From: Phlegmacium glaucopus
Lineage: Eukaryota; Basidiomycota; Agaricomycetes; Agaricales; Cortinariaceae
Length of the DNA stretch: 64,000 nucleotides
NCBI GenBank assembly: GCA_015039465.1
Contig: MU130030.1
Coordinates: forward strand, 97,950 to 161,949
Direction of reading: 5' to 3'
The notes beneath the pieces are model-generated. The model worked only from the letters and a program-made list of their open reading frames with translations. It was not told the DNA's origin and did no database searches. This document shows, in pieces, positions 836 through 56,944 of the stretch. Every line of letters starts with the position of its first letter. The stretch's first letter is position 1. Position numbers and translations under genes: made by a program.

Positions 836-1860
836 TTACAAACAAATAAATTCCTTGATGCTCATATTAGCTTTAAAAAATTATTTTCTGCTGGTGGGAG
901 ACATTATATGTCTTTCAATGGTGACATGGTTTACCGACATCTTCAAAGTCTCACTGACATTTCATTAACATATAATCAACAATATTTCAAAGAGAAACAT
1001 TTTCTATTCAGGGGTTACAGATGCTCTGATACTATTTTAGATGTTCAATTGAATCAAAATGATCCTCTGTTTTTTTCATGTATCCCCCTTGAACAATTAT
1101 CACCCTGTTTGAATATTAAAGAGTTACGAGAGTTAGGTGTCTTACATAATATTTATATACCACATAAATGCACAAAAAAAACAATGTTGACATACTTTCA
1201 TAATCATCATTGCAATGAATGTGACCAATATGTCTCTGTTCTCACTGAAATTAAACCAAGAATCACTCTCAGTTCAAAAAAAAAAAAAAAAAGAAAGAAA
1301 TCTAACACCTTAATTCCTGATTTACCAATCAAATTCCCACCAGATCCTCCTTCTAACAGATTAATTGAAACAATTATAAGAGGCTTTTGTAATGATACAG
1401 CATTGGATAATCTTACTGAAACAGGCTGTGCTGTTTGTGGTCAATTGTCGTCTCTCAAAGATATGCTCCTATTAAATGAATCCTTTCTGTGACTCCATTC
1501 TGTTACTCCATCCGAAACTCCGGAACAGAGTTCTCAAACTTAACACCTGGCAATATTGGAAGACAGGAACGAACCAACTTATCTGAACCAATAATCCCAT
1601 TAAAAGGACCAATATTAGCAGAAAATTGCCAACATATTTGTCAATGTTGTCAATCCTTTTTGAAAAAAGACAAACTACCACCACAATATTTGGCTAATTT
1701 GTTTTGGATAGGTACTATACCACCAGTATTACTAAATCTAACATTTGCAGAAAAGATGTTAATATCCAGGATTCAACATAATAGATGTCTAGTACGCGTC
1801 TCATCAGGCTGAGCGAAATTAACTGCAAATGTAATAATGTTTTCAAATCCCACTGTAAAG
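836..1860 (+). pseudogene. Helitron protein N-terminal segment with zinc-finger motifs, frameshifted
   Basis: Reading around 850-1491 gives residues such as SFKKLFSAGGRHYMSFNGD followed by Cys/His pairs (HHCNECDQY and later CAVCGQ), typical of the cysteine-rich region in front of the Rep domain in fungal Helitrons. A TGA closes this frame at 1490-1492 and the homology resumes in another frame (1489-1858), which holds CQCCQSF and the run HNRCLVRVSSG. That second frame meets TGA at 1810-1812, where an Arg would fit. Near 1858 a one-base loss moves coding into the frame of the main Rep-helicase ORF. A homopolymer run of A at 1277-1291 is another place where length errors could arise. Confidence 0.65.
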
Positions 1861-4800
1861 TTTACCTTGCACTACCTCCTAGCCACCAAGATATCAGTGA
1901 AATTCTAGCATTTGTATTTCAAGGTCCCATTAAACCCAGTGATGAAGATATTAAACGTACACCAATGCTAGTATGCAGAAATAATGTCAAAGATGCTTTA
2001 GAATGGTTAAAATTAAATCATATTGACTATGAAGATCTTCACATTTCCATTGATAATCTGAACAGTTATCCTCTATCAGGCGTGCCAGTGAACATTGAAT
2101 ATGTGAAAACGGACCCAAATTCTGGAAATAAAATAGCTATGGCTATGAGTGTTCATGATAATGAATTTGAAGAAGGAACAACTGATGGTCCATGCCCATT
2201 TACAGTACATGGCCTTACTGGACCAGAATTTGAACAGATGTCTATAGATAATCTGAAAGCAAGAGCATTACAACATTTAGCTGAAGGGGGTTCAACCTTG
2301 GGTATTAGTCATGATGATAAACCCCAATCAATGTATGACAATCCACAAGCATATCCACAAATGTTTCCTTGGCTTTTCCCTTATGGTTTTGGAGGAATTG
2401 GACAGAAATGTCATTTTGGAATAATATCTGAAACTACTCACAAACACAATCTCCTTATGTATTATGACAAACATTTTCAAACAGATTTTTATTTTCCAAT
2501 GATTGCATTTAATCATGAACAACTGAAAGCAGGTGTCACTGGTAGTTTCCTTTTAGCTAAAAGAAAAAAATGGCCTGATATATCTAAACGCTTAAGTTCT
2601 CTAAATCGAGATGTACTCAAAAGAATTAGTGACAAACTTTCAGATGGTGAACATTTTATTCCTAAAACTACTGATGAAAAAGCCTGTTTTGAACTATTAA
2701 AAGACTTAGATCATGTTGGTGGCTTTGTAAAAGGTTCAATAACATGTAAAAAATACATGCGAAATGAGATATGGTCTATGATATCAGAACTAGAGGCACC
2801 ATCATGGTTTATAACACTATCACCTGCTGATAATCGACACCCAATATGTTTGTATTATGCTGAGAAAAATATTGAATTTAAACCTGATTTAAGGACAGCA
2901 AATGAACGGAATCTACTTGTAGCACAAAATCCTGTAGCAGCAGCACATTTTTTTGATCTGATGGTTCGTATGTTTATCAAACATGTATTTGGTATTGGAA
3001 CTGAACATTCTGGACTCTATGGCAATACAGCTGGTTACTATGGGACAGTTGAACAACAAGGCCGATTAACATTACATTTGCATACAGTATTATGGATTAA
3101 AAATGCTCTTTCACCACAGGAAATTCGAAACAAACTCATGGACAAAGATAGTAAGTTCCAACAAAGCCTCATACAATACCTTGAGGGTTGTCAAAAGGGT
3201 GAATTTCTAACAGGAACAATGGAATATGTAAAATCCAAAATACCTAAAGATACTATAAACGAATCTACAGGTATTCACACTATTTTTGACAATGAATGCC
3301 CTCAATCAGTACATAAATCATATCAAGATCCAACTCAAACTATTCCTGAAGAACCACCTCATCCTTGTGATTCAAATGAACATATAAATTGTACTGGTTG
3401 CCAACCATTAAGACATTGGTGGGTAAAATTTCAAAACATTGTTGATGACATTTTATTGAGAACAAACATACACAAATGCAGCTCTGCTGAACTGGGGAAG
3501 TCTAAATTCAAAGCAAAAGGATGCCTAAACAAAGATGGAATTTGTAAGGCACACTTTCCACACCCTATTGTACCTGAAACAACTGTTAATGTTGAAGATG
3601 GTTATATCAATATGAAGAAAACCGAAAGTATGCTAAATACAATATCTCCTTGTATAACCTATATTTGTAGATGTAATACAGATGTTACAAGCATGCTTTC
3701 TGGTACCTCAATTAAGGCAATTATTTCATATGTTACTGATTATATCAGTAAACCTACATTAAAGACACATCAAATATTTGCAACTGCTTATAATATTTTT
3801 GATAGAAATGCCACATTAGCTGAAGATGATCCTATGCAAACAGGCAATACACACAAACTAATCTTGAAAGTTGTCAATGCTTTGTCTGCAAAAATGGAAA
3901 TTGGAAGTCCTATGGCTTCTATGTACTTACTACAAAATCCTGATCATTATACCTCACATAAATTTATTCTATTTTGGTGGAAATCATTTGTAAATGATGT
4001 TAGAGGATCTCAATTTGTCAATAATACAGCAATTGTTGTGGAAGAAAATAATATTCAGATAAAAAAAGAAATAGATACAAAGATGGAAAGCTTGTACAAA
4101 AGGAAAATTGAAGCATTATCTGGAAATCATGTTAGTATGGATATTGATGGTTTAATAAATATTAATGCTATAAATTCATCTGAATATAAAGTTGAACCAT
4201 TGCTCATAAATGACAATGAAATGGATGTTGATGATGATCCAGCTTTATTTTTTAGAGGAGGAGCCTTTAATGAAGAAAATGTTCATGAAGAAATTGAACA
4301 TGCAGATGGATATGAGAACTCTGATGATGATGATGACGATGATGAAGATGAAAATGAAAATGAAAATTATGAAAATATAACAAATATTGAAGATGATCCA
4401 AATGATGAAAAACTACTGATCTTACAAAATGGCAAAGATTATATAGCATCTTCCAAGATCGATGATTATAAATACCGTCCTGAAGCTTATAACATTATAT
4501 CATTATATGACTGGACAAAATTATCAGTAAAAGTTAATATGAAACATAAATCTCATGATACAACATACATGAAATTTCTACCTGATCATGGCCAGAGTAA
4601 AACCCACAAGGTGAAATGTATTCCTTCACGATCAAATACATTTATTTTGAATTTCATTGGTGGGTCACTACCTCGATGTGACCAAGGAGACTTTGAATTT
4701 TATTGTTGTACAATGTTAACTCTTTTCAAACCATGGAGAAATGGTCAAGATTTGAAAAATATAAATCAAACATGGGCTGAAGCATTTGCACTTTATAACT

Positions 4801-7166
4801 TCAATATTGACCATAAAAAAATTATCAACAATTTCAACTTATGTTATGAATGTCTAGATGAAAGAGATGACTATCATGCAATATTAAAACAACAGTCAAA
4901 TATAAACAAAAAACAATCATTATCCACAATTCAAGACCACTATGACAATGATTGTGATTTTGGAATACAATCAAATATAGAAGAAGATTATGGTGACCAG
5001 AATATTTTAGGTCCTATTGCAATTAAAAAAGTTCAACAAATGATAGAGATCGAAATGATGATGAAGCAAGCTGGTTGGCTAGATCAGCAAAAAAATATAA
5101 ATCCACAACCAAATGTTTACAAATTTCATCCCACTGTCCACAAAACTGGAGCTCAATGGAAAAATATTGTAAAGGAATGCCAGGAAAAGTTATTGATTGT
5201 CAAAAAGATTAAATATGCATCTACAGTATCAACATTAAATACACTGAGAAAAATAATTTTCCAACCATTAGCTATTGAATTGCTACATCCAGAATACTTT
5301 CTCCATAATTTTCAAGCACAAAATTCCAATGATCGTCAAATTATCTCCAGTACTCTTCTCAATTTTTCTCTTAATAAAGAACAAGAAAGAGCTTTTCACA
5401 TCATAGCAAATCATGCATCTGAAGCCTATCCTCAACAACTCAAGATGTATTTGGGAGGTATGGGAGGTACAGGTAAAACACAGGTCATTAAAGCATTAAT
5501 ATCAATGTTTAATCAAAGACAAGAAAATTATTGATTTATTGTTTTAGCCCCTACAGGAACAGCTGCTGCTCTTTTGAACAGTTCAACATGTCATTCAGTA
5601 CTTGGTATTCGATCATCTAATATTAATAGAGAAGATGAACCCTCCAGAAATTCAAACAGCCTTATTAAAGAAGTACAAGAACGATTGGAAGGTGTTGATT
5701 ATATATTTATTGATGAAATATCTATGATTGCCTGTCATGAACTATATGCAATAAGTTCTCAATTATCAAAAGTTACAAATGAGCATGAAAAACCTTTTGG
5801 AGGCAAAAATATAATTTTGGCTGGTGACTTTGTCCAACTTCCACCAACAAATGGTTCACCTTTATACAGTAATATTGTCTCAAATACCCAAAAATGTACT
5901 ATGTCAAAAAGAGATCAAGAATCAACAATAGGCAAAATATTATGGCATCAAATTACCACTGTTGTGATTCTAACTCAAAATATGTGACAGACAGAAATAT
6001 CAGAAAATGATCAAAAGTTCAGAACTGCTTTGAACAATATGAGATATGCATCCTGTACAAAAGATGATATAATTTTCCTACAGACTCTTGTTGTAAATAA
6101 AAACACAACAGACAGAACATTAACAGATCCAGAATTTAGAAATGTGTCTGTCATAACATCTTTAAATACACAAAAGGACCATATAAATGGCCTAGGTTCA
6201 ATCCAATTTTCCAAAGATACTGGACAAAAATTAATACATTTTTATTCAATTGACAAGCAAGCAAATACTGCTATAGGACCAAAAAAGAGAGGAACACAAA
6301 CAACCAAAAAAATTGGTGCAAGTATTGATATCCCAATTGACATTCAAAAATCTTTGTGGAATTGTAGCCCACATTCTAGTGAGCATTTTCCAGGCAAACT
6401 ATCATTGTGCTTAGGTATGCCTATTATGATAAGAAATAATGATGCAACTGAACTTTGTATTACTAAAGGCCAAGAAGCCTATGTCATAGGCTGGGATTCT
6501 ATACAAGGCCCACAAGGCCAAAATCATTTAGAAACATTATACTTAGAACTAAAAAATCCACCAAAATCGATACAACTGCCAGATTTGCCTCCAAATGTTA
6601 TTCCTACGGTAAAAATATCCAAAACAATAAAATTCAGTCTGCCAAACAATTATGAAATAAATACAATTAGACAACAAGTGAATGTTTTGCCTAATTTTTC
6701 TATGACAGACTATGCATCACAAGGAAAAACTTGTCTATATAATGTTGTGAATCTTAGTCACTGTAAAAACTTTCAATCAATTTATACCTGTCTATCAAGA
6801 AGCTCAAGCACAGCAGGCACTCTCATTGTCCAAGTATTTAACTCAGTCAAAATTACCAAGGGTTTGTCTGGGCATTTACGTCAAGAATTCAGAGAATTAG
6901 ACATTCTGAATGATATTACAATGAAGATTTATGAAGGTTATATAGATAAATCATATCTTGGACTGCTACATAACCCAATGCTATATAAATATCAAAAATA
7001 TTTTAATAATGTAATAAATGACACTAATAATAACTTGCACCATGCTTTAAAGGGAACTGATACTGAAATCATTAAAAACAAAGAACAGGATGGTATATGG
7101 AACCTTAATACATATCACAACCTTTTAAATTTAACAATTAACAAGAACAAAGATAAATCAAAGTGA
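1860..7166 (+). pseudogene. Helitron Rep-helicase (HUH/Y2 Rep plus PIF1 helicase), stop-interrupted
   Basis: The open frame 1785-5534 contains the Helitron_like_N region and the Rep motifs: H-L-H at codons 3075-3083 (metal-binding HUH) and the two tyrosines of YVTDYISK at 3729-3743 (the Y2 nucleophiles). An acidic Asp/Glu tract follows at 4322-4370. The Walker A motif GGMGGTGKTQ lies near 5454-5483. After a TGA at 5532-5534 the same frame continues with APTGTAAALL and the Walker B FIDEIS (5574-5987). A TGA at 5985-5987 follows, and then the C-terminal helicase motifs, including SQGKT and YTCLSRSSS, up to 7166. All three breaks are TGA in one continuous frame, with Arg expected at each, so a single ancestral protein is inferred. 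Metal, Tyr and ATP-binding residues are all still present. Confidence 0.9.
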
Positions 7167-9852: not shown

Positions 9853-10115
9853 CACCAGCAACAACAATACCACCGACAGCTTTACCCACCACCACCACCA
9901 CCACACTCTTTGTTTACTACTGGAGTTGTTTGTCACTACTGGTGTACACTACACCAGTGCACTAGTGTGGGGCGCGTGATTTGTTTTATGTACTAGAACT
10001 ATCGTCGTACGGTAACGGTAGTTTCGAACCATATAATATATTAAATCGTATTCACATGATAAAAAGATCATTTCAGTCTACTAAGTACGAACGTTGAGTT
10101 AAGACGAGTCTTAGA

Positions 10116-10277
10116 CATAAGGTATACCTAAGGTGACCTTAAAGATATAAGGTATACCTTAGGTATACCTTAGGTCACATATAAGGTACACCTAAGGTAC
10201 TATCTAAGGTCACCTTATTACCTAAGGTCACCTTAGGTACACCTAAGGTACCTAAGGTCCCTGTAAGGTGGTAAGGT

Positions 10278-10308
<31 letters not shown>

Positions 10309-10602
10309 AGGTATACCTTACCTATATAAGGTACCTTAGGTACCTTAGGTACACCTTAGGTATACCTTACCTATATAAGGTACCTTAGGTACCTTAGGTA
10401 CACCTTAGGTATACCTTACCTATATAAGGTACCTTAGGTACCTTAGTTAACGTTAGGTATACCTTACTTATTTGAGTCGTACCTTAGTTACCTTAGGTAC
10501 ACCTTAGGTATACCTTATCTATATATAGGTACCTTAGGTACCTTAGGTACACCTTAGGTATACCTTACCTATATAAGGTACCTTAGGTACCCCTTATATA
10601 AA
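10116..10602. repeat. Self-complementary CTTAGGTAC satellite-like block
   Basis: Dense repeats of AAGGTATACCTTAGGTACCTT-type words, with a phased sub-repeat of about 65 bp in the 3' half and a run of about 27 A at 10278. Almost every word is palindromic. The 10-mer GAGTCTTAGA flanks the block directly (10106-10115 and 10629-10638), which may be a target duplication, though the sequence next to the right copy is not part of the palindromic repeat. Confidence 0.8.
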
Positions 10603-10689
10603 GTTGGGTATTTATTACTTGAATTCTTGAGTCTTAGATTAGTTAATAAGGTCAGACAGTCAGAGGAATCTAAATATAGTTCCATTCTT

Positions 10690-27306: not shown

Positions 27307-27604
27307 TGTTGGAAGTATTTCGCAGATGAACTAGAATGAAATATAATAAGTCTCAACTTCGGATAGAAGTTGCTATATAATTAAGTACCTAGAATGAAAT
27401 ATAATACTAGGTACTGTTAGTAAAGAATTTCGTATATAATAATTGTTACTCACAGTCTCAACTTTGGATAGAAGTTGAGACTACTAAATAAAAGTATGCT
27501 ACGTATAAGGGAATGCGATTACATAATGCATTCAGGAAGTGATATGAAAAGATGAGATATATGATATGATAAGGAGGCGAGTGATAACTCGGAATAATCC
27601 AACA
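27307..27604 (-). repeat. 3' LTR of the minus-strand copia element (298 bp)
   Basis: On the plus strand it runs TGTTGGAAGTATTTCG to AATAATCCAACA. It contains two stem motifs (agtctcaactt...aagttgagac) and a duplicated agaatgaaatataat phrase. The polypurine tract GAGGGGGAG lies just inside on the minus strand. The left flank 27302-27306 (atggg) has no partner at the other end. The only other copy of this LTR in the window is the mirror copy at 33247-33544. Confidence 0.92.
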
Positions 27605-27729
27605 CTCCCCCTCGAGTTAAACGAGTCCACGCGGGCACGACGCGGTGATCAGGTGATGAGGAACGTGCTGTTTCGTTTATCAGCAGATCGATTAAACAAC
27701 AATAAGCGATCGTTGTTATCGACTGAGTT

Positions 27730-30700
27730 TCAAACGTCCTTGGTTTCCACCAGCTTCCTCAGCCCTAGCGATTCGACGAATGACCCGAACTTTTGCTTAG
27801 ACAAGGCCTTCGTGAATATATCCACTACGTTTTCGCTCGATGGGATATATTCAACCTTTATCCTTTCGTCTTCGACGGCCTCACGGATGAAGTGGTATCG
27901 TAAGTCGATATGCTTTGTTCTTGCATGAAATTTATTGTCTTTCGCTAATGCAATTGCTCCTTGATTATCGCAGTTGATCTTTAGTGGTCGATTTTTCGGG
28001 TAACCGATTTCTTCAAGAAAAGCACGAAGCCATAATGCTTCTTTTGCTGCGTGAGTTTGAGCTATATATTCCGCTTCAGTGCTCGATAATGCGATTATGT
28101 TTTGTTTCTTTGAGCTCCAGGATACTGCACCGCACCCGATATGGAATGAATAGCCGGATATTGAGTGCCGGTCTTTCTGGCTGGCCCAATCTGCGTCACT
28201 GTAGCCTTCTACAGCTTCGCTTCTTCCACCCATTGTGAGCCACAGTTCTTTCGTGTGTCCGAGATAACTTATGACTCGTTTTAGCGCTTCCCAATGGGCT
28301 TTTCCGGGGTTTTGAATGAATTGTGATAGAACACCAACCACAAACGCAGCATCCGGTCTCGAAACTACAACCGGCCACAAGACACAGCCTATTGCTTCAG
28401 CATAGGGTATCCCTCGCATTTGCTGGACTTGATTTGGTGTCGATGGGGACTGATCTTTTGAGTATTGAGCTCCAGGTTCCATAGGAATCGAAATCGGTTT
28501 GGTATTAGTGAGTCGGAATTTCTCTACCATTGCTTCAATATATGCTTTCTGATTTATGGATATAGTCCTCTCTTTTCGGTCGCATTTTATTTCATATCCC
28601 AGGAACCACCGTATTTCACCATGGTCGGTTATCTCCCATCGTTTACGGACCTCGGATTTGAAATTTTCGGCATCGAGTTTTCGTTTGGAGGTTACTGCCA
28701 TGTCGTCGGTAGCTACGGCTACAATGGTATGTTCCTCGCCTGATCTTCGATAGAATACTGAGTGATCTATAGCAGATCTCTTGAATCCCATCTCGTTTAC
28801 GAAGATCTTGCTCATCTCTTGGTACCAACCTCTTCCCGCCTGTTTTAGACCATATAGGCCCTTCAACAAACGGCACACTTTTCCTTCTTGCCCCAATTTT
28901 AGGACTCCTCGCGGGGGTCTCATATATATAGTTTCCTTTAAGGGGGCGTTAAGGTAAGCGCTTTTGACATCGATATGTTCGATTTCCCAGTCCTGAATTG
29001 CTGCATTTGTCAGGACTACTCAAACAGTTGGCATTTTCACGGCAGCCGAAAACGTTTCGGTATAATTAACACCTTCGACTTGTTTATGGCCTCCAGCTAC
29101 TATTCGGACGCGATAGCTTTGAATCTTGCCATCAGGTCCGCATTTATGACGAAGGACTTCTCTACAAGGTATAGCAGTGTGACCTTTAGGTAAGTCTTCG
29201 ATTACCCATGTTCCGAGCTTCTCGAGTTGACCGATTTCGTAGTTAAGGGCTGCTTGCCACTCTTTGGCATCAGGACCACGAAGCGCTTCATCCATAGATG
29301 GTGGTTCGTTTCCCATATTTCCGATTATTGCGAAATTGGGAGGTATATCACCAAGTAAGTCTTCATTATCTTCTGTGATATAGTCTCTGATGTTTTCTTC
29401 GTCATCTAGGTTGACATAAGCTGCCATTGCTGCTAACGTTCCTTCGTTCATAGCTTTATAGGCTCCTCGAGGTTTTCGCAGTCGCTGGCCTCTCCCATAG
29501 TCAGAATGTTCACTGGGTTCATCGACGTCATCGGAAGGTGGTTCATGTGAGATTTCGGGCATTTGTGGGAATGGGACCGAATTTGAGGGTTCGTTTTTGT
29601 CATTTGAGTCATCATGATCCATTTGCTGATGGTCTAGTTCAGCTTCGTTTTGAGTATCATTGGTATCTTTTGACTGGATGACTTTATCCCTCTCCCCCTC
29701 AGCCAGGTAGTTTCCGGGAGGAATGGTAATATCTTGTTCAATGAGTAAGTCTTTTTCATTGAACACAACATTCCGTTCGACCGAAATTGAGCGCTTAGTT
29801 GGCCAATAGATACGATAACCTTTGGATTCGGAGTCATATCCGACAAATCTACCAAGATTTGCACGAGCGTCTAGCTTTCCGGCCTTTAAATCTTTGACAT
29901 AGGCGGCTGCTCCGAATTCTTGCAACCCATTTAGGTAAGGTTTCTTTTTATGTATCATTTCGTATGGTGTTTTACCATCGAGCGCACGAGCTGGTGTTCG
30001 GTTTTGGAGCCACGTAGTGTGCTTCATCGCCTCTTCCCATAGGAATCTTGGCAAACTTGAGGCCAGTAGAAGAGCTCTAGCTCTTTCGGCTCTCGTTCGC
30101 ATGCCACGTTCGGATACACCATTTTGAGGAGGTGAGTCATGGACAGTGAACTCGTGTATAGTTCCTTTCCTTTTATGATGACTAGTGAATTCGTTCGACA
30201 TAAATTCTCCCCCTCAATCGCAACACATAACCTTTATTCGGTTTCCGGATTGGGTCTCAATTAGGGCTTCATCTTCTCTATATGATTCGAAAGTCTGACT
30301 TTTCTTTTGTTGAAAATAGAGAGCCGTTTCGCGAGTTGCATCATCAATCCTGGCAGCTACGTAATGATTTCCGTTAAGACTTCTAACTGTAGCTGGCCCC
30401 CAGAGGTCCCAGTGGACTCTTTCACCGAATTTTGTAGCCCTGGTATGTGACTCTTTTGGGAAAGGTTGATTTATTGACTTCGCTTTCGCACAGGCTTCGC
30501 AGAATTCTGGTTTAGATTCCTGGTCAAGATCTATTCCTAGAATATGCCCCTTCGAGATCGCATGTTTGATAGCTGAGTGGGAAATATGACCTAATTTTCG
30601 ATGTGCTTCGCTGATGGACATTTTCACAGAAGCGGAATTAGCTCGATTTGGTTCTTTCGCCCCTTCGAGTTTCCCAATCCTGTATAGTCCTTCGGAGTGT

Positions 30701-31893
30701 GGAATGGTGGCTACAGTTTTTCCAGTAGGATTTTTAACTATGCACATCCTTTTGGCAAAAGTAACTGTATAGTCAGCTTTGTCAAGTTTCGAGACCGAAA
30801 TTAGGGTGAAGGCCATATCCGGTGCGTATATAGCATCATTGAATATGAAATCGGTTCGTTTTGACCCATTTGGTAGCTCTATATGTAGATCCCCAGTTCC
30901 GAGTGCCTTTAAGGTTCGACCATCGGCCGTGGTTATATCCTCGTCGATAGGACGGTAATTTTGGAATTTGGAACAATCTGGGCAGTAAACGGTGCTCACG
31001 CCGCTGTCAACACATCCGCCCAGTCTCGATTTTGGGACTTTTAGATCATTTGCAAGGGCCATGAAGTCAGAGGTACAAGTGAATGCGAATAGCTCGTCTT
31101 TATCTTGAGTTGCTACCACTGCTGACTGATTCCTTTTAGGTTTTCTCTGTCGCGGTCCCTGTCCTTCCTTGCCACCTCCTTTAGACCAGCAATTTGGTTG
31201 GCTATGACCGGGTTTCCCACAGTTATTGCAGTACTCATCGGAATCTCCATTCTGCGACTTTTCCGATTTGTTTCCTGGCTTACGACGACCCTTTCCGGAC
31301 CTTTTCGAGTTGACTGCGAGAGCTGATTCAGCATATTTCGATCATTCGTCTTTAATTACTCGGTGTTGAGCTTCTTCAATAAAGAAGGCAATCAGGTCGT
31401 CTGCTTTCATTCGATTTGATGATGTACCAAGAGCGGAATTTGTTCGTTCGGCTGCAGTAATGGTTTGGAGGGTCAGACAATATGATTCAGGTAAGGAAGT
31501 CATGACGATTGTGTTAAATCGCGAGTCGGATAATGTTGAACCCATAGATATGAGATTGTCACGGCGTTGTAGCATGATTTGGAAGTGCTGTTTCAGCTCA
31601 GCGAGATGGGTTTTTGGATCATCATTGTCGCTAAGCTTCATGCTGGCAATTTGGTCTTCGGCATCCAGTAAGTACAACGTGCTTTTCGTCGTGGCATCTG
31701 CTTTGACTAATTCCCACATCTCTTTTGCAGTCGTTAGGTTCTTTATTTTAGCTCCAAGACGCATCGAGGTGGTGGATAGGATGATATGTTGGGCCATGTA
31801 CTCTCGTTTTTCGAATTCGACCAATCTAATCTCTTTTGTTTCAATCTGTTCTTCATTAGCTTTCGTTTTGCCATCTTCTAAGACGGGTACTCC
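27730..31893 (-). pseudogene. Ty1/copia gag-pol polyprotein (minus strand), three TGA breaks, gag start missing
   Basis: Reading leftwards from 31893: gag (EFEKREYMAQHIIL, then a CCHC zinc knuckle CNNCGKPGHSQPNC), protease (CVDSGVST, the usual D-S-G), a GAG-pre-integrase domain (HRKLGHISHSAIKHA), integrase (VHWDLWGPA through RAERARALLL), then reverse transcriptase with ATDDMAVTSK and RNase H (SDADWASQKDRHS, LSSTEAEYIA). In-frame TGA codons stand at 31342-31344, 30214-30216 and 29020-29022 (minus strand). The 51.8-kb relative or the family consensus has Arg at each. All core catalytic residues remain. The first 65 or so residues of gag are not upstream on either strand in normal orientation; they occur as mirror text at 33550-33743. 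Confidence 0.93.
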
Positions 31894-33105
31894 GCGCAGT
31901 CATGCGCAGTCAGGACCGTGTGAGAAGAGGACAGGGGCAAAGTGACCGACAGCGTTTGCCCTAGAAATCATGGATGTTTCTAGCTGTCGTTGCACGATTG
32001 AAGAGCTTGGACTTCTAGAACTACGAACTATGTATGTAGGTCCTGGTCTTACTACCCGAAATGGACCGTCTAAATGTAAAGCTGTCCCCTTCGAACAGTC
32101 TGTTTTTAGCATATATAAAAATCACTCGGAGGATCTAAGAAAGGGACACGTAGATTAGTAGGCGCTTGCAGTCCAAAATACAGTCCGCACGTTCCAGTCT
32201 ATGGGTCTACTAGACGCGATGATTTTCTCTGCGCTATAGTACCAGTTATAGTACAAGTTGTGATCGGACTCATGGCTCTACAAGAAGTAACGTCGTACAT
32301 AGCTTCCGAAGAAGATTCCATTCTATAGATAGGATGCTGAAAAGTACCGGAGCCGATTTCGTGAGGAGCAGGGTCCTGAGATTGGACCGCATAAGTATAT
32401 AAATGTTATGGTCCACAGGTTTTTTTACGGGGCCGTTCTTCATTTTATAGAAAAAGATGCGAGGGACCCCAGAAATACAAAGTCATAGACGACGATGGGA
32501 GCAATCACTATATTGTTAACGGTATACTTTTCATCCATTGCTGAGACAAACACTGTTTACTGTTAAGAAAAATACGATAGTCAACACGTCTATAAGCCGT
32601 CATGGGAGTTAGGTAGACACCAGCGTTGTAGACACAGCACTAGTAAGGAAGTTAGAATAGTAAGCGTATGAATCCAATCAGTTGGATGGAAGTAAGCAAT
32701 CAACTAAAGTTGAATAACGGACATCGATGCAATCAGTAGACAAAGCTCAATAATGCAAAACAGCCTGGTTACATGTTTATGGTTGCAGACCTTCATATGC
32801 TAGTTGGCTGTTTAGATCGATAAGGGAACCGTCACTTACAATAACTGTCAAATTCGACACTTCCTAATAGTTCGTCAAGGCCCTTTAATTCGGGTAGCGC
32901 ATGCTGGCTGTTACCGCCCTCTTTTAACGTCAGATAGTACCAGTTCATGAACAACTTAGCCTGTACGGTCGTTGCAAACAGCGGGTTAACACGAATGACA
33001 ACACGGCTGCCCCAGACCGAACTAGTAACCAAAGTTGGTTTACAAATTACACTAAACTTCTAGACCGGAAGCTATGTTTTACACAGCATCCGTTTGTCGG
33101 CAAAC

Positions 33106-33246
33106 TTAGCGCGGAACTAATAGTGTTTTCTCTCACCATCCATTTGATTTTCTTTTATTTAATCTTTTAAGCCTTTCGTTAAACACATAGGTGTTCTATA
33201 GGAAGCTTCTTACCCATTCACGGTGCATAAGCCGAAGCCATGACCT
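33106..33246. pseudogene. Mirror-text copia RNase H segment (second element)
   Basis: Reversing the letters of 33246 down to 33106 gives an open frame reading STEAEYVALTHSSKDILWI and then LFCDNQGAI, the classic copia RNase H stretch. It differs in sequence from both other copia elements here. It abuts the mirror LTR, so in the unreversed state the minus-strand copia LTR lies inside another copia's RNase H gene. Coding fades beyond GAI. Confidence 0.8.
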
Positions 33247-33544
33247 ACAACCTAATAAGGCTCAATAGTGAGCGGAGGAATAGTATAGTATATAGAATAG
33301 AAAAGTATAGTGAAGGACTTACGTAATACATTAACGTAAGGGAATATGCATCGTATGAAAATAAATCATCAGAGTTGAAGATAGGCTTCAACTCTGACAC
33401 TCATTGTTAATAATATATGCTTTAAGAAATGATTGTCATGGATCATAATATAAAGTGAGATCCATGAATTAATATATCGTTGAAGATAGGCTTCAACTCT
33501 GAATAATATAAAGTGAGATCAAGTAGACGCTTTATGAATGTTGT
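33247..33544. repeat. Mirror-text copia LTR (298 bp)
   Basis: Same length as 27307-27604. Letter-by-letter reversal of that LTR matches this stretch with only about six differences by eye. The complement read left to right starts TGTTGGATTATTCC and ends CTTACAACA. The reverse complement does not match. Confidence 0.93.
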
Positions 33545-33743
33545 CCAATACCCGGGGTCGTGACGGTACAGTTTATTGCTAAGGTAAGGGCTGAGAAGGT
33601 CGGAATGTCACGGATTTGAGGCACTGCTGCCTTCATTAACCAGACTAATGGATGGGTCCTATGTTTCTCGATACCCCAGTTTCCCTGAGACCTCTGTGCA
33701 ACTTCCCTGTCGTCATCGCGGGTTCGGTAAATGTAACGAATTG
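33545..33743. pseudogene. Mirror-text primer-binding site and gag N-terminus
   Basis: Complementing (not reversing) the text gives GGTTATGGGCCCC directly after the LTR and an open frame from that ATG. It contains KLRDDGSNWSDYLPRIQRAM and GLWRHVEGTAVAPKPF, closely matching the start of gag at 52,140 (GSNWADYEPRIHKAM, GLWRHIEGTATAPKPY). It ends exactly where the normal-orientation gag of 27,730-31,893 begins. Confidence 0.92.
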
Positions 33744-33769
33744 AAAAAAAAAAAAAAAAAAAAAAAAAA
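33744..33769. repeat. Poly(A) run at the mirror-block edge
   Basis: An uninterrupted run of about 26 A directly follows the last base that belongs to the mirrored gag and directly precedes a TIR element. Confidence 0.8.
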
Positions 33770-33999
33770 CATGGTTAAGTTAGTTAAGCCGTCCCCCACA
33801 CTGGACACTGGTCGGACTGCTTTAAAACCAAAGCAGTTTAATGGTATAATCCTTCCTCATTCGTGTTAAATATTCGTTTTTAGCCAGATTTTGGTGGTTA
33901 AAACCTCTAAAAACCCATAAAAACCCCACTGCGGACACTGAAAAGCCGTTGTGTTTCCCGGGACACTGGACACTGGCGGCTTAACTAACTTAACCATGT
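33769..33999. mobile_element. 231-bp TIR element (MITE)
   Basis: CATGGTTAAGTTAGTTAAG and three more bases (33770-33791) are exactly inverted at 33977-33998; one more base each side also pairs. Near both ends the phrase actggacactgg or its variant recurs. No coding capacity. No target duplication can be seen because the left flank is the poly(A) run. Confidence 0.75.
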
Positions 34000-34650
34000 C
34001 ATGCCACATGTTTCTAGTAATGTTTTTAGTGGGAATCCAATCCCGATGAAAACTTTTTTTAAGAGGTCGGATAAACCGCGGAACATGTTTTCATCGCCGG
34101 AGATCCACCGACCGTGGTATCTATGTTTCTTCTTTCCACTCCGGTAAACCCTTACACTAAAGACTTATATAGGTGTTAAGTCTAAGTAGTGTCTTTTGTT
34201 GAAATTGTCATTCAAGAATTCCTTAATTTAGTACTATCATGAGCCAAAACTGTAAGTCTGTAACATGCAATGAAAACATCTGAATCTGCAAGGATAACCT
34301 GTTCAGGTATTGTGATTAAGTATGTTCAACACCCTGAAGACCGTACGAGTATGGGAAGATTATGTCGATGCAGGCATCCTCAACAGGTATGGATGCAAAA
34401 GATGCTCATGTTCCAGAGACTTTGGGCATAGATTAGATTAGATTATGGACCCTTAATTCCCCTTTTGAGACATGCACCATTTCATTCAACTCAAAATCAA
34501 ATAACTCTGTCAGTTTTGGTCCGATTGCTTATCCCTTTAACCAATTTGTAGCCCTCAATGAATGAAAGCGATTTGTTAAAGGAATAAGAATTTCTCCTTT
34601 TTTTGATGGCCCTATTTAGGTTGTACAAAAGTAGCGGCCTTTAGGCGACC
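34000..34650. other. No recognisable gene; 5' break of the gypsy element near its right end
   Basis: No feature recognised until pol homology starts at about 34,650. Confidence 0.4.
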
Positions 34651-38180: not shown

Positions 38181-38842
38181 TGTTACAAACTTCCTTTTTC
38201 TTTCCTTAACTCCTCCAAATACATGCAAGGCGAACACACAAGCCATTCACGAAATCATATCAAAACAGGACACACATGACAACATAACGACGCGAATCAT
38301 AACACCGAATAATACAAAAACAGACCACCTGAAACCCTAACCACCAAAACCAAGAACCACCCGTCGATGAACGACAAAGACCCGAGTCACAAATAAAAGA
38401 CCAACAAAACTAATACTTGAAAAGCGAACACGGGAACGTTCAACTCAAAAAAGACCAAATGTTGAGAGTTGAGGCATAACCATATTGGGAAAGGCCACCG
38501 TGAACAGTGTTGAGAGCTGAGGCATAACCATATTGGGAAAGGCCGCTATGAACAAAGCGGTATGGGCGACGAGTAGGAGACTATGCCACAGATGCCACTC
38601 CATTGTACCACCAACATATAAATACTGTACCACCCCATAGATGTACCTCAGTCGTTATAACAAGTGACTGAGGTACGCTATCTTATTTCCTCTCTTACTT
38701 ACTTCATTTACTTACATTTACTGTACCTAGTATTGTCACATCATCATCTAGGTACGATAGACTAAAATATTAGTCGTTATAACAAGTGACTGAGTATTGT
38801 CACATCATCATCTAGCGCCATCTAGGGTATTAGATTCTAACA
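38181..38842 (+). repeat. 3' LTR of the gypsy element (662 bp)
   Basis: It starts TGTTACAAAC after the polypurine tract and ends GATTCTAACA, with inverted TGTTA/TAACA ends. It contains a TATA-like tataaatact at about 38,619. The hairpin phrase gttataacaagtgactgag occurs near 38,654 and 38,775, and a tandem ttgagag..tgaggcataaccatattgggaaaggcc at 38,462-38,545. Confidence 0.8.
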
Positions 38843-51815: not shown

Positions 51816-52135
51816 TGTTGAACTATACGAGTTTCAGTCATTGATTATTTGTTTAGGTATCTTTTATCTTATCATCCCTTTCATTCTTTATTCACGTTAT
51901 CTATTGCATTACATAATCACGGTCATTTTGTCACAGATTTTACTTATTACAAGTCTCAACTTTATCCTAAAGTTGAGACATGAGCACAATCATTTTATTT
52001 CTACACTACATTAGCTGATCATTACCTAGACCTATTCATTTGTTCTAGGTAACATACATTCCATATTTAATATACAACTTTATCCTAAAGTTGAGACAAC
52101 TATTCATTTGTTCTAGCTGCAAAATTATCTCAACA
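51816..52135 (+). repeat. 5' LTR of the copia element
   Basis: 320 bp. It holds two stem motifs caacttta...taaagttgagac and the duplicated phrase ctattcatttgttctag. It differs from the 3' LTR mainly by CpG/TpG-type changes and one stem rearrangement (tatcctaaag against aggaaaag). Confidence 0.95.
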
Positions 52136-52150
52136 GGTTATGGGCCCCGA
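52136..52150 (+). promoter_or_regulatory. Primer-binding site, half-tRNA type
   Basis: GGTTATGGGCCC directly follows the LTR. It is nearly complementary to the anticodon stem-loop of initiator tRNA-Met (GGGCTCATAACCC), as used by Drosophila copia, rather than to a tRNA 3' end. The gag ATG overlaps it. The same phrase follows the mirror LTR at 33545. Confidence 0.6.
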
Positions 52151-55100
52151 AGACAAACTGTCTAACTTCACAATGAACTCCAGCTCCGAATTCGCTAATA
52201 TTGCTATCCCAAAGCTCTGTGACAATGGAAGTAATTGGGCAGATTACGAACCCAGAATCCATAAGGCCATGGGAGCGAAAGGACTATGGAGACACATAGA
52301 AGGAACCGCGACAGCGCCCAAACCATATGCACTTGTCGACTCGGTTCTAGTTTTAGAAGACCGAAAGACATGTGCTACGGAAGAGCAGATTGAAACAAAA
52401 GAGATAAAAATGACAGAGTTTGAAAAATGTGAGTACTCAGCTCAGCACATCATACTCTCGTCGGTCTCTACACGTCTCGCCTCCAAAATCCTCACAATGA
52501 CCTCAGCTGAAGACATGTGGAAAATGGTGAAAGCAGATGCGACAACCAAAAGCACCTTGTATATCTTGGATGCAGAAGATCAGCTCTCTAATATGAAGCT
52601 GACTGAAAACGAGGAGCCAAAAGCTCACCTAACAGAGCTGAAACAACACTTTCAGTTGATGGTTCAGCGACGTGATAACCTGTTAAAGATGGGGTCAGAC
52701 ATATCCGAGACACATTTTAATATCATTGTAATGTCATCCCTACCGGAATCATACCGACCAACCCTTCAGACTATCACGGCTGCTGAACGTGCTAGTGCCC
52801 TCTCAGGAGGCCAATCGCAGCGGATGAAATCCGACGACCTTATCTCCTTCATCGTTGAGGAAGTGCACCACCATGTCATAAATGATGAACGTGGCAAAAA
52901 TGCCGAGTCTGCGCTTGCCGCTAACATCAAAAGGGGAGGAAAGCATCGACATGGGAAGCAAAGGAAATTTGAGAAGCACGGCAAGCATGATTGTGATGAT
53001 GCCTGCGGAAACTGCGGAAAACCTGGCCATACATCAGCAGACTGTTGGTCCAAAGGAGGTGGCAAGGAAGGCCAAGGTCCGAGACAAAGGAAACCTAAAA
53101 AACTCGAGTCAGCTGTAATTGCTGTAGACGATGAAGACGATAAGCTATTCGCTTTTACCTGTACTTCTGACTACGTCAATGTTGCGAATGCCCTGCTGCT
53201 TTTGAAGTCCAAAAACACTGGTTGTGTCAATAGCGGAGCGAGCAGCAACTACTCTCCAGACCAGTCCAAGTTTACAAACTATCGTTCTATCGATTGTGAT
53301 ATCACAACAGCTGATGGCCAAACGGTCAAAGCCATTGGAATGGGTGACATGCACCTAGAGTTACCAAACGGTTCAGGGAAGACAAAGACGACATTCAAAA
53401 ATGCCATTCACTCACCCGATATGGCTTTTACCTTGATATCCATTAGCAGACTTGAAAAAGCTGGGTGCCTGGTGACATTTCATAAGGGCATGTGCACAAT
53501 AAAGCTAGCAGACGGATGTACCATTGTGACTATACCCTGAGCCGACGACCTCTATTGTTTCCCAATCTCAAACCAACCTAAAAATGAGCAGCGTGCTAAC
53601 ATAGCAATTGAAAAAATGAATGTCAATGAGGCCCATCGCAAACTAGGCCACATATCTTTTTCCGCTATCAAACACGCCATCTCGAAAGGTTATATCACTG
53701 GAATCGACCTGAATAATGAATCCAAGATTGAGTTTTGTGAAGCCTGTGCCAAAGCAAAGTCAATACATCAACCATATCCACAAAAGTCAGAGACTTGAGC
53801 CACAAAATACAGTGAAAGAGTCCACTGGGACCTATGGGGGCCAGCATCAGTTAAAAGTCTAAATGGTCACCACTACATATCGATGATGCGACTCGCGAAA
53901 CCAAGCTTTACTTCCAAGAGAAGAAAAGCAAAACCTTCAAGTCCTATAAACAGGACAAAGTGTTCATCGAAACCCAAACTGGCAACCATATAAAAGCAGT
54001 ACGCTCTGATCGAGGGGGAGAGTTCCTATCAAAACAGATGATTCAACATCAAGACGATAGAGGTACAAAACGTGAACTTACCATTCATGATTCACCACCT
54101 CAAAACGGTACTGCTGAAAGAGGAATGTGTATGCGAGCCGAATGAGCTTGTGCTTTACTTCTGGCCTCTGGTCTACCTCGTTTCTTGTGGGAAGAAGCCA
54201 TGAAACATATGACTTGGCTTCAAAATAGAACTCCTACATGTTCATTAGATGGAAAAACTCCATACGAAATGATCAATAAAAAGAAACCATACCTTGGTGG
54301 AATCAGAGAGTTTGGAGCAGCAGCCTACGTAAAGGATCTACAAGCTGGAAAGCTAGATGCTCAAGCTCAACGCAGACAATTTGTGGGTTACGACTCCAAA
54401 TCAAAAGGTTACCGAATATACTGGCCCGGTAAATGTTCTATCACTGTTGAGAGAAATGTCATTTTCGACGACAACGATACACATTCTGATGCAAATGTCA
54501 ACATACCTGGAGACTTGCTGTCTGAGGGGGAGAAGCAAAAAATCATCCACCAGTCTCCAAATCCAGTCGAAAATGTTGAAGAAACTGAGAAATTTCCCAT
54601 TGAAACTATCAGTGAAAATCAACTTGAACATAATCCGGATAACACTTATGAAGACACGGTAGAAGTCCCCATGATCGAGTTTGCAGCTGATCCAACCCTT
54701 GAATCAGCAGACGACCCAAACATTCAGCAGTATGGCCGCGGTTGTCATGCACAAAAACCGAGAGGTGCTTACAAGGCAATGAATGAGGGTCTCATAGCAG
54801 CTGTAGCCTGTTGTAACAACACAATTGCTGAAACCAAATCGTCAGATCAACTTATCGACGAGGACATTGAACTTAGCTTTTTGCCCCTGGACTTCGCTCT
54901 CGTAAGCTCTCACCCGTCTGATCCTCGCACGCTTGATGAAGCGTTGTCTGGACCTGAAGCAAAAGAATGGCAAGCTGCACTTGACTACAAAATTGGTCAG
55001 CTTGAAAAGTTCAAAACCTGGGTGGTAGAAGACTTACCAAAGGGCCATAGTGCTATCCCATGTGGCGAAGTCCTGAGAGTGAAACGAGGACCTGATGGAA

Positions 55101-56509
55101 AGGTACAAAGCTACCAACTGCGAATCGTAGCCGGTGGACACAGACAAGTTGAAGGAGTGAACTACATGGAAACATTCTCATCCGCTGCAAAAATGCCGAC
55201 TGTACATGCCATCCTTGCGAACACTGTGGAACAAAACTGGGAGATAGAACATGTCGATGTGAAAAGCGCTTACCTTAACACGCCTCTCAAAGAGACGGTC
55301 TATATAAAAGCACCACGTGGAGTCCTAAAACCTGGTCAGGAAGGAAAGGTACTGAGGCTATTGAAAGGCCTATATGGGTTGAAACAAGCCGGAAGAGGTT
55401 GGTACATGGAGATGAGTAAAGTATTCATGAACGATTTAGGCTTCAAAAGATCCGTGGCAGACCATTCGGTATTTTATCGACAATCTGGTGAAGAACACAC
55501 TATCGTTGCTGTGGCAACCAACAATATGGCAGTGACTTCAAAACAGATGATTGATGCTGAAAAATTCAAAGTGAATATCAGAAAACACTGGGATATCACT
55601 GATAACGGACCTATTGGTTGGTTCTTGGGTTTTGAGATCAAGCGAGATAGAGAAGCTAGAACGATATTGATTAATCAACAAGCTTATATTGAAAGCATAG
55701 TCGACAAATTCAGGCTTACCAATGCAAAACCTGTCCATACGCCTATGGACCCAGGAGCTCAGTATTCCATCAATCAATGCCCATCAACAAATAATCAAAT
55801 ATCGCAAATGCAGGGAGTACCCTATAACGAGGCCATAGGGAGCGTATTGTGGCCGGTTGTTGTATCTCGACCGGATGCAGCCTATGCCGTAGGCGTCTTG
55901 TCGCAGTTTATTCAAAACCTGGGACCTGCACATTGGGAAGGGTTAAAACGAGTAATAACATATCTTGGAACAACAAAACATTACTGGCTTACCTTTGGTG
56001 GAAAATCAAGTACACTATTCCAAGGGTATTGCAATGCGGATTGGGCTAGTCAGAAACACCACCATTTGATTTCAGGGTATAGCTTTCATTTTGGACGTGG
56101 GGCGATATCATGGAGTTCCAAAAAGCAACACATCATAGTGCTGTCGAGCACGGAGGCCGGATATATCACATTGACCCATGCTGCAAAAGAAGCGCTCTGG
56201 ATGAGGAGTTTTGTCAGTGAGCTACGCGAGGACGCATCAGGACCTACCAAGATAAATTGCGATAACCAAGGTGCGATAGCGTTAGCGAAGGATAACAAGT
56301 TTCATTCGAGAACAAAGCACATCGACCTACGTTATCACTTCATCAGGGAGGCAGTCCAAGATGAGAAGATGGAAATTGATTACATACCGACCAATGAGAA
56401 CATTTCGGATATATTCACGAAGGCATTGGCGAGACTGAAATTTGTTCAGTTCATTCAGCGACTCGGGTTGGGGGTGTTGAGGAAGCAGGACATTCAAACT
56501 CAGTCCTAG
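52140..56509 (+). pseudogene. Copia gag-pol polyprotein with three TGA stops and lost catalytic residues
   Basis: Gag starts at the ATG at 52140 and has the CCHC knuckle CGNCGKPGHTSADC. The protease reads CVNSGASS, Asn where the catalytic Asp should be. TGA at 53538 (TIP*ADDLY), then HRKLGHISFSAIKHA; TGA at 53796 (SET*ATKYSERVHWDLWGP); a short deletion near 53,880 removes part of the integrase core; DRGGEF is kept. TGA at 54143 (RAE*ACALLL). The frame 54185-56509 holds the rest of integrase, RT with ATNNMAVTSK (both catalytic Asp now Asn) and RNase H with YCNADWAS and STEAGYI. The minus-strand relative has Arg or Asp at each of these places. Confidence 0.95.
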
Positions 56510-56620
56510 AAACAACAATAAGCCTTATTGTGTAATCAATAACACAATCAGCACATTTACCATCACATGACGGACGCGCACACAATATAGGACATCAACG
56601 GTGTTTCACTCGAGGGGGAG

Positions 56621-56939
56621 TGTTGAACTATACGAGTTTCAGTCGCTGATTATTTGTTTAGGTATCTTTTGTCTTATCATCTCTTTCATTCTTTATTCAT
56701 GTTATCTATTGCATTACATAATCACGGTCATTTTGTCATGGATTTTACTTATTACAAGTCTCAACTTTAGGAAAAGTTGAGACGTGAGCACAATCATTTT
56801 ATTTCTACACTACATTAGCTGATCATTACCTAGAACTATTCATTTGTTCTAGGTAACATACATTCCATATTTAATATACAACTTTATCCTAAAGTTGAGA
56901 CAACTATTCATTTGTTCTAGCTGCAAAATTATCCCAACA
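56621..56939 (+). repeat. 3' LTR of the copia element
   Basis: 319 bp, same ends as the 5' LTR, followed by the target duplication GAGCC. Confidence 0.95.
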
Positions 56940-56944
56940 GAGCC

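Follow-up and report, generated by a model that had tools for sequence, protein, structure and literature searches.

The 64,000-nucleotide stretch analysed here (the window) carries, on its minus strand, a Ty1/copia element whose 3' LTR and body are written in normal order and break off at position 31893 (Table 1). The element shares with other Ty1/copia elements of agarics its LTR ends (TGTTGG...CCAACA) and its gag and RVT_2 domains, and in itself shows nothing out of the ordinary; what sets it apart is its 5' end, which the assembly appears to have written backwards. Its open reading frames match the Pfam families RVT_2, SH3_retrovirus, Pol_BBD, gag_pre-integrs and Retrotran_gag_2; in frame 29020-30201 RVT_2 scores below its cut-off, and the gag frame in normal order (31342-31824) matches Retrotran_gag_2 only from profile position 33 onwards. 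A second copia element lies at 51816-56940, in normal order, with long gag and pol frames between LTRs (51816-52136 and 56621-56940) that are 95.6% alike. Neither Rfam, at gathering thresholds, nor ARAGORN gave a match in the window.

Table 1. Features of the locus and of related sites; coordinates are those of the window unless a scaffold is named
Feature	Position	Strand	Evidence or remark
3' LTR of copia element, normal order	27307..27604	-	LTR match; 43 matches listed in the genome
Copia body, normal order up to the gap edge	27605..31893	-	ORFs 27730-28923, 29020-30201, 30214-31119, 31342-31824
Left gap patch, letters reversed, uncomplemented	31894..33743	.	1850 bases; join against C240, composition
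Mirrored flank sequence	31894..33109	.	99.6% identity (1216 columns) to C240:474943-476157, read backwards
Mirrored RNase H fragment of another copia, adjoining the LTR	33105..33246	.	backwards 100% over 142 bases to C221:218939-219080; translation
Mirrored 5' LTR of copia element	33247..33544	.	match to 27307-27604 (292/298); 291/299 columns to the C240 LTR
Mirrored copia gag start	33545..33743	.	backwards 196/199 to C240:474323-474521
Placeholder, 25 A between the patches	33744..33768	.	run of 26 A at 33744-33769, the last A belonging to the right patch
Right gap patch, mirrored	33769..34185	.	417 bases; comparison with C86, composition
Mirrored small inverted-repeat transposon (MITE-like)	33769..34002	.	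five other copies; empty site on C86
Second site of the defect, a run of 27 A (10278-10304) with reversed composition to its left and right	9868..10683	.	Markov score; in tandem repeats
Mirrored patches flanking a run of 501 N (C25:181102-181602)	C25:179833-182949 (L020 and L021)		window's own scaffold

An earlier note on this DNA had proposed that the block 31894-33743 is copia sequence in mirror order, reversed and uncomplemented, with a copy of the 3' LTR that differs at about six positions. Read backwards, letter by letter, 33544-33247 indeed agrees with the LTR at 27307-27604 in all but six of 298 bases (292/298, 98.0%), without a gap (blastn within the window, E 1e-146), and the backward RNase H that the note had read (STEAEYVALTH ... 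CDNQGAI) is found on translating 33246 down to 33106. The reversed block also aligns to the second copia element, where the note had pointed to 52136-52400 (52326-51938, 69% over 402 columns), and to 38236-38317 (72% over 82 columns). As written, and on both strands, the block matches only itself and an internal 24-base direct repeat within the window at E <= 1e-3; the reversed string thus beats both the forward and the reverse-complement strings, and the note was right that searches of these two strings alone overlook such stretches.

Chance or low complexity could in principle produce backward matches. To serve as a control, 68 half-overlapping stretches of 1850 bases were each compared backwards with the rest of the window: four exceeded 100 bits, precisely those that contain the block or its LTR partner, while ten others gave 49 to 94 bits, including tandem repeats near 8-11 kb. 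The strength of the LTR match and this control rule out the chance reading. The window is rich in copia elements and inverted repeats, and an ordinary genomic inversion, or an inverted transposon insertion, might have been misread by eye. An inversion yields the reverse complement, however, and only the plain reversed block, neither of its written strands, matches the LTR at E <= 1e-3; the block is not the reverse complement of the expected sequence, which rules out a genomic inversion, and we give a misreading of this kind next to no probability.

The edges of the mirrored text were placed by comparison with normal copies elsewhere in the genome. At C240, the last base in normal order, 31893, corresponds to 474322, and the base at the far end of the block, 33743, read backwards, corresponds to 474323, with neither gap nor overlap (forward 31205-31893 against C240:473577-474322; backward 33743-33244 against C240:474323-474824). 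Beside the join, identity is 199/200 bases on the forward side and 196/199 on the backward side; farther than about 200 bases from it, identity drops, to 79.5% over 746 columns. The proposal that the missing start of gag lies at the far end of the block and joins the copia gene at 31893 is therefore exact as an adjacency of DNA, the form in which it was assessed. The rest of the block behaves in the same way: 33109-31894 matches C240 backwards at 99.6%, which answers the question, raised in the note, whether 31894-33105 also gains homology only when reversed. The block as written gives no match to the C240 region at E <= 1e-10, and C240 accounts, reversed only, for the whole of it except 134 bases (33110-33243), which fall inside the RNase H fragment 33246-33105 that is identical to a piece of C221.

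The left patch thus looks like a mosaic, judged by its sequence, in which an RNase H piece resembling C221 is combined with a remainder resembling C240, and because of this it may belong only in part to this locus. The LTR of C240 has a different neighbour from that of the mirrored LTR. No target-site duplication of the copia element was found, with ATGGG before 27307 and TCCAG after the mirrored LTR, and part of the patch may derive from a different copy. The C240 region has a run of N of its own, and the sequence to the left of this run (L039, C240:466500-471500) favours reversed order (p = 0.0002), so that the region used as the normal reference has gap trouble of its own nearby; the copy that we used lies on the opposite side of that N run, where there is no such signal (L040, p = 0.37).

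The earlier note had let the mirrored sequence end at 33743. The mirroring of 31894-33743 stands, the end does not: beyond a placeholder of 25 A, a second mirrored piece extends from 33769 to 34185. The earlier reader overlooked this patch, the placeholder, and the recurrence of the defect elsewhere. Read backwards, 34186-33997 matches C86:44003-44192 at 99%, and forward 34186-34230 is identical to C86:44186-44230 (100%). When 33769-34185 is reversed in place, it reads as the flank known from C86, followed by a small transposon whose ends are inverted repeats and, after it, the forward flank; TA is duplicated here and single at the empty C86 site. The transposon, read backwards from 34002 to 33770, recurs at five other places in the genome with 98-100% identity over 233-234 bases. 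With its inverted-repeat ends, its TA duplication and its five near-identical copies it is an ordinary MITE-like element inserted at a TA target, from which the window copy differs in being readable only backwards. Its end is perfect only if 33769, the 26th A of the run, is counted in the right patch, and the placeholder is therefore exactly 25 A long. The right join, too, is exact, as judged against the empty C86 site and the transposon's own inverted repeat. The two mirrored pieces are reversed separately, each in its own place.

A biological poly-A tract, such as the tail of a retroposed sequence, might be thought to account for the A run at 33744. Biological poly-A runs are expected on both strands and with variable length. 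Counted over the whole genome, the scaffold strand has 157 runs of exactly 25 A and the opposite strand one; for runs of exactly 24 A the counts are none and one, respectively; overlapping words of 25 A number 827 and 194. The fixed length and the one-strand bias (157 against 1; 0 against 1) rule out a poly-A or retroposed tail, and nearly all of the 157 runs are probably placeholders.

The order of letters could also be judged from composition, with a strand-symmetric Markov model, for which the remaining sequence of the window served as training set and which was tried at several orders. Out of 106 chunks, each of 600 bases, 89 to 94 preferred the normal reading, depending on the order, with a mean of about +18 to +20 bits, and all four chunks that span 31801-34200 were negative, that is, in favour of the reversed reading, at every order. 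At a finer scale the block gives no uniform signal: the 200-base windows starting at 31801, 32601 and 33401 are positive. When the test was anchored on the placeholder, the left patch gave p = 0.0067 and the right patch p = 0.0037, with an estimated length of 425 for the latter; these p values, like those that follow, are rough, because the scaffold that supplied the null positions had also been used to train the model. Plain dinucleotide odds were uninformative: CpG odds are 0.97 for the block as written, 0.93 for the block reversed and 0.59 elsewhere, so that reversal does not restore the depletion.

Two segments of the window score best as reversed, 9868-10683 and 32017-34194, and the window's two longest homopolymers fall one in each: the run of 27 A at 10278-10304 and the run of 26 A at 33744-33769. 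Around the first of these runs, p is 0.0002 on both sides. Backward 10813-10688 matches 10304-10444 at 78%, and backward copies of the tandem repeat match forward copies outside 9868-10683; at this site the defect is read from composition and repeat matches, the base-level joins being established at the other. In the examined part of the window's own scaffold, C25, the best reversed segment, 179821-183026, surrounds a run of 501 N; the two window segments come next, with 69.6 and 41.4 bits, ahead of a segment of 23.6 bits. The flanks of this N run, read backwards, match ordinary repeats of C25 at 80-99%. Its left join is exact, in that three normal copies (113559|113560, 189154|189153 and 157315|157314) place forward 179832 directly next to backward 181101, and at its right join about 50 bases are left over against one normal copy. 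For this N run and for both A runs of the window, each side favours the reversed reading at p < 0.01.

A self-comparison of C25 covered 261,949 letters of scaffold (8,905 of them N) at E <= 1e-8. Unmasked, it returned dozens of backward self-matches, up to 99% identical; once the three suspect stretches were masked, two remained, at 67.6% and 69.2%, between approximately C25:27023-27262 and 191123-191407, and the former interval lies within about 530 bases of a run of 8404 N. No strong mirrored stretch away from gap marks was found on the examined part of C25.

Recurrence is seen beyond this scaffold. A genome search with 31894-34230 as written returned 23 rows: the locus itself, six rows from the last 45 normal bases, one from the A run, and 15 mirrored matches. 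The surroundings (about 2 kb) of five of the 15 were inspected, on C221, C91, C164, C14 and C105, and a gap mark adjoins all five. On C221 the mirrored match lies beside a run of 26 A (89% over 510 columns); the other four, at 71-73% identity, lie 17 to 41 positions from the edge of an N run. A further mirrored match, C5:284887-285254, is about 1 kb to the right of a run of 25 A. Also on C221, another copia 5' end is mirrored to the right of the A run (L042, C221:218204-218938), and normal order resumes at about 218939, with the RNase H fragment found in the window.

Composition gives a more varied picture across the gap marks. Of the eleven exact 25-A runs that head the list, all but the one on C1 were sampled; among their 20 flanks, 9 favour the reversed reading with p below 0.05 (4 of them below 0.01), and the other 11 do not reach 0.05. 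Among flanks of N runs, 5/11 fall below 0.01. There is no reversed signal to the right of the run of 8404 N (0.80), nor at L030 (0.70), L043 (0.55) or L040, and at L043, on C91, composition is silent though the mirrored match is clear. The flanks of the C221 run are marginal (0.045 and 0.048), and the two sides of L038 differ (left p = 0.0002, right p = 0.73). Control flanks, beside runs of 28 T, 22 T, 15 A and 17 A, fell below 0.05 in two cases of eight, to the right of the 28 T and to the right of the 22 T. A first comparison of the ten 25-A sites with local sequence gave backward matches to the left of the run at L036 and L038, and normal-order matches to its right at L033, L036 and L038; it is hard to interpret, because its database itself contained mirrored stretches. 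Some N runs may be other than assembly gaps.

How could mirror-order DNA come to stand in an assembly? That a natural process wrote it at this locus would agree with the fact that the mirrored text is really present in the assembly, beyond chance, and the check for gap marks covers 5 of the 15 mirrored rows plus one beside a run of 25 A. The stretches examined, however, abut runs of 25 to 27 A or of N, their edges lie to the base at the points where a patch would stop, the placeholder has a fixed length and occurs on one strand, and the mirrored transposon is still 98-100% identical to its normal copies. We regard a natural origin as having a negligible probability. The earlier note had left two options, text reversed during data handling or something unprecedented; gap marks, recurrence and exact joins uphold the first, and the second falls away. 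Since the joins are exact, the placeholder is fixed and confined to one strand, and the defect recurs at gap marks, we read the mirrored text as an assembly artefact, gap patches placed in reverse letter order (probability about 0.97), and the mirrored order is very probably absent from the living fungus. A reversal introduced after assembly, while sequence data were passed on, we consider very improbable, for the defect recurs on other scaffolds, at gap marks, with patches of varied length and on one or both sides.

On this reading, the artefact arose as follows. A scaffold gap began at 31893/31894; a gap-patching step grew both contig ends into it, leaving the extensions unjoined; a placeholder of 25 letters was put between the extensions 31894-33743 and 33769-34185; and both extensions were written reversed and uncomplemented. 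The simplest cause would be a routine meant to reverse-complement a consensus from the minus strand that only reversed it. In that case reversal would depend on the strand of the patch, which would explain why some flanks are mirrored and others are not, and why the two sides of one gap, as at L038, may differ. The placeholder may initially have been 25 N, turned into A afterwards; PBJelly, a patching tool, presumably leaves 25 N at gaps of the kind that it calls overfilled.

We lean towards PBJelly as the tool responsible, the fault itself being deduced from the assembled letters; the patches would then derive from long reads, placed by PBJelly in the JGI hybrid pipeline. According to the relevant passages of Miyauchi et al. 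(2020, PMC7550596), a paper in which Cortinarius glaucopus is mentioned, JGI hybrid genomes are ALLPATHS-LG assemblies patched with PBJelly. In the passages of English et al. (2012, PMC3504050) that describe the tool, a gap is a run of 25 or more N, and extensions that remain unjoined are termed 'overfilled'. The anatomy is that of the locus: two unjoined extensions of the flanks. In the passages, extensions may exceed the predicted size of the gap; they mention neither an uncomplemented reversal nor a placeholder of A, both of which the locus shows (PMC3504050). It is possible, though less likely than not, that the same artefact arose at another step, be it a different gap closer, an editor of scaffolds or a script used for submission. 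The silence of the PBJelly passages on an A placeholder and on reversal (PMC3504050) would fit such an origin, and gaps marked by A and gaps marked by N may stem from different steps; against it stand the naming of PBJelly as the patcher of JGI hybrid genomes by Miyauchi et al., who also mention Cortinarius glaucopus (PMC7550596), and the anatomy that the overfilled outcome shares with the locus (PMC3504050). Passages of four further papers (PMC9635638, PMC5299676, PMC4580222, PMC7757076) describe overfilling or extension and do not describe reversal, and among the passages that our search of the PMC literature brought up, none is a printed report of assembly text reversed without complement.

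As biology, the mirrored text has no significance; as quality control, it is a concrete and easily scanned assembly defect. Mirrored text breaks genes and transposons, mimics unique sequence and evades ordinary similarity searches. We see a real chance, short of an even one, that a long-read patching step in wide use has, through faulty handling of strands, left reversed text in many public hybrid assemblies besides this one. If so, damage in many assemblies would be invisible to searches of the forward and reverse-complement strings. It could be detected elsewhere by comparing sequences with their own plain reversal, and by counting exact runs of 25 A by strand.

Two other features of the window lie outside the mirrored sequence. 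At 1785-5534 a Helitron-type protein is encoded, with matches to Helitron_like_N and DUF6570 and a sub-threshold match to PIF1. A fragment at 35057-35554 matches RT_RNaseH_2 and RT_RNaseH, domains that we take to be those of gypsy-type elements.
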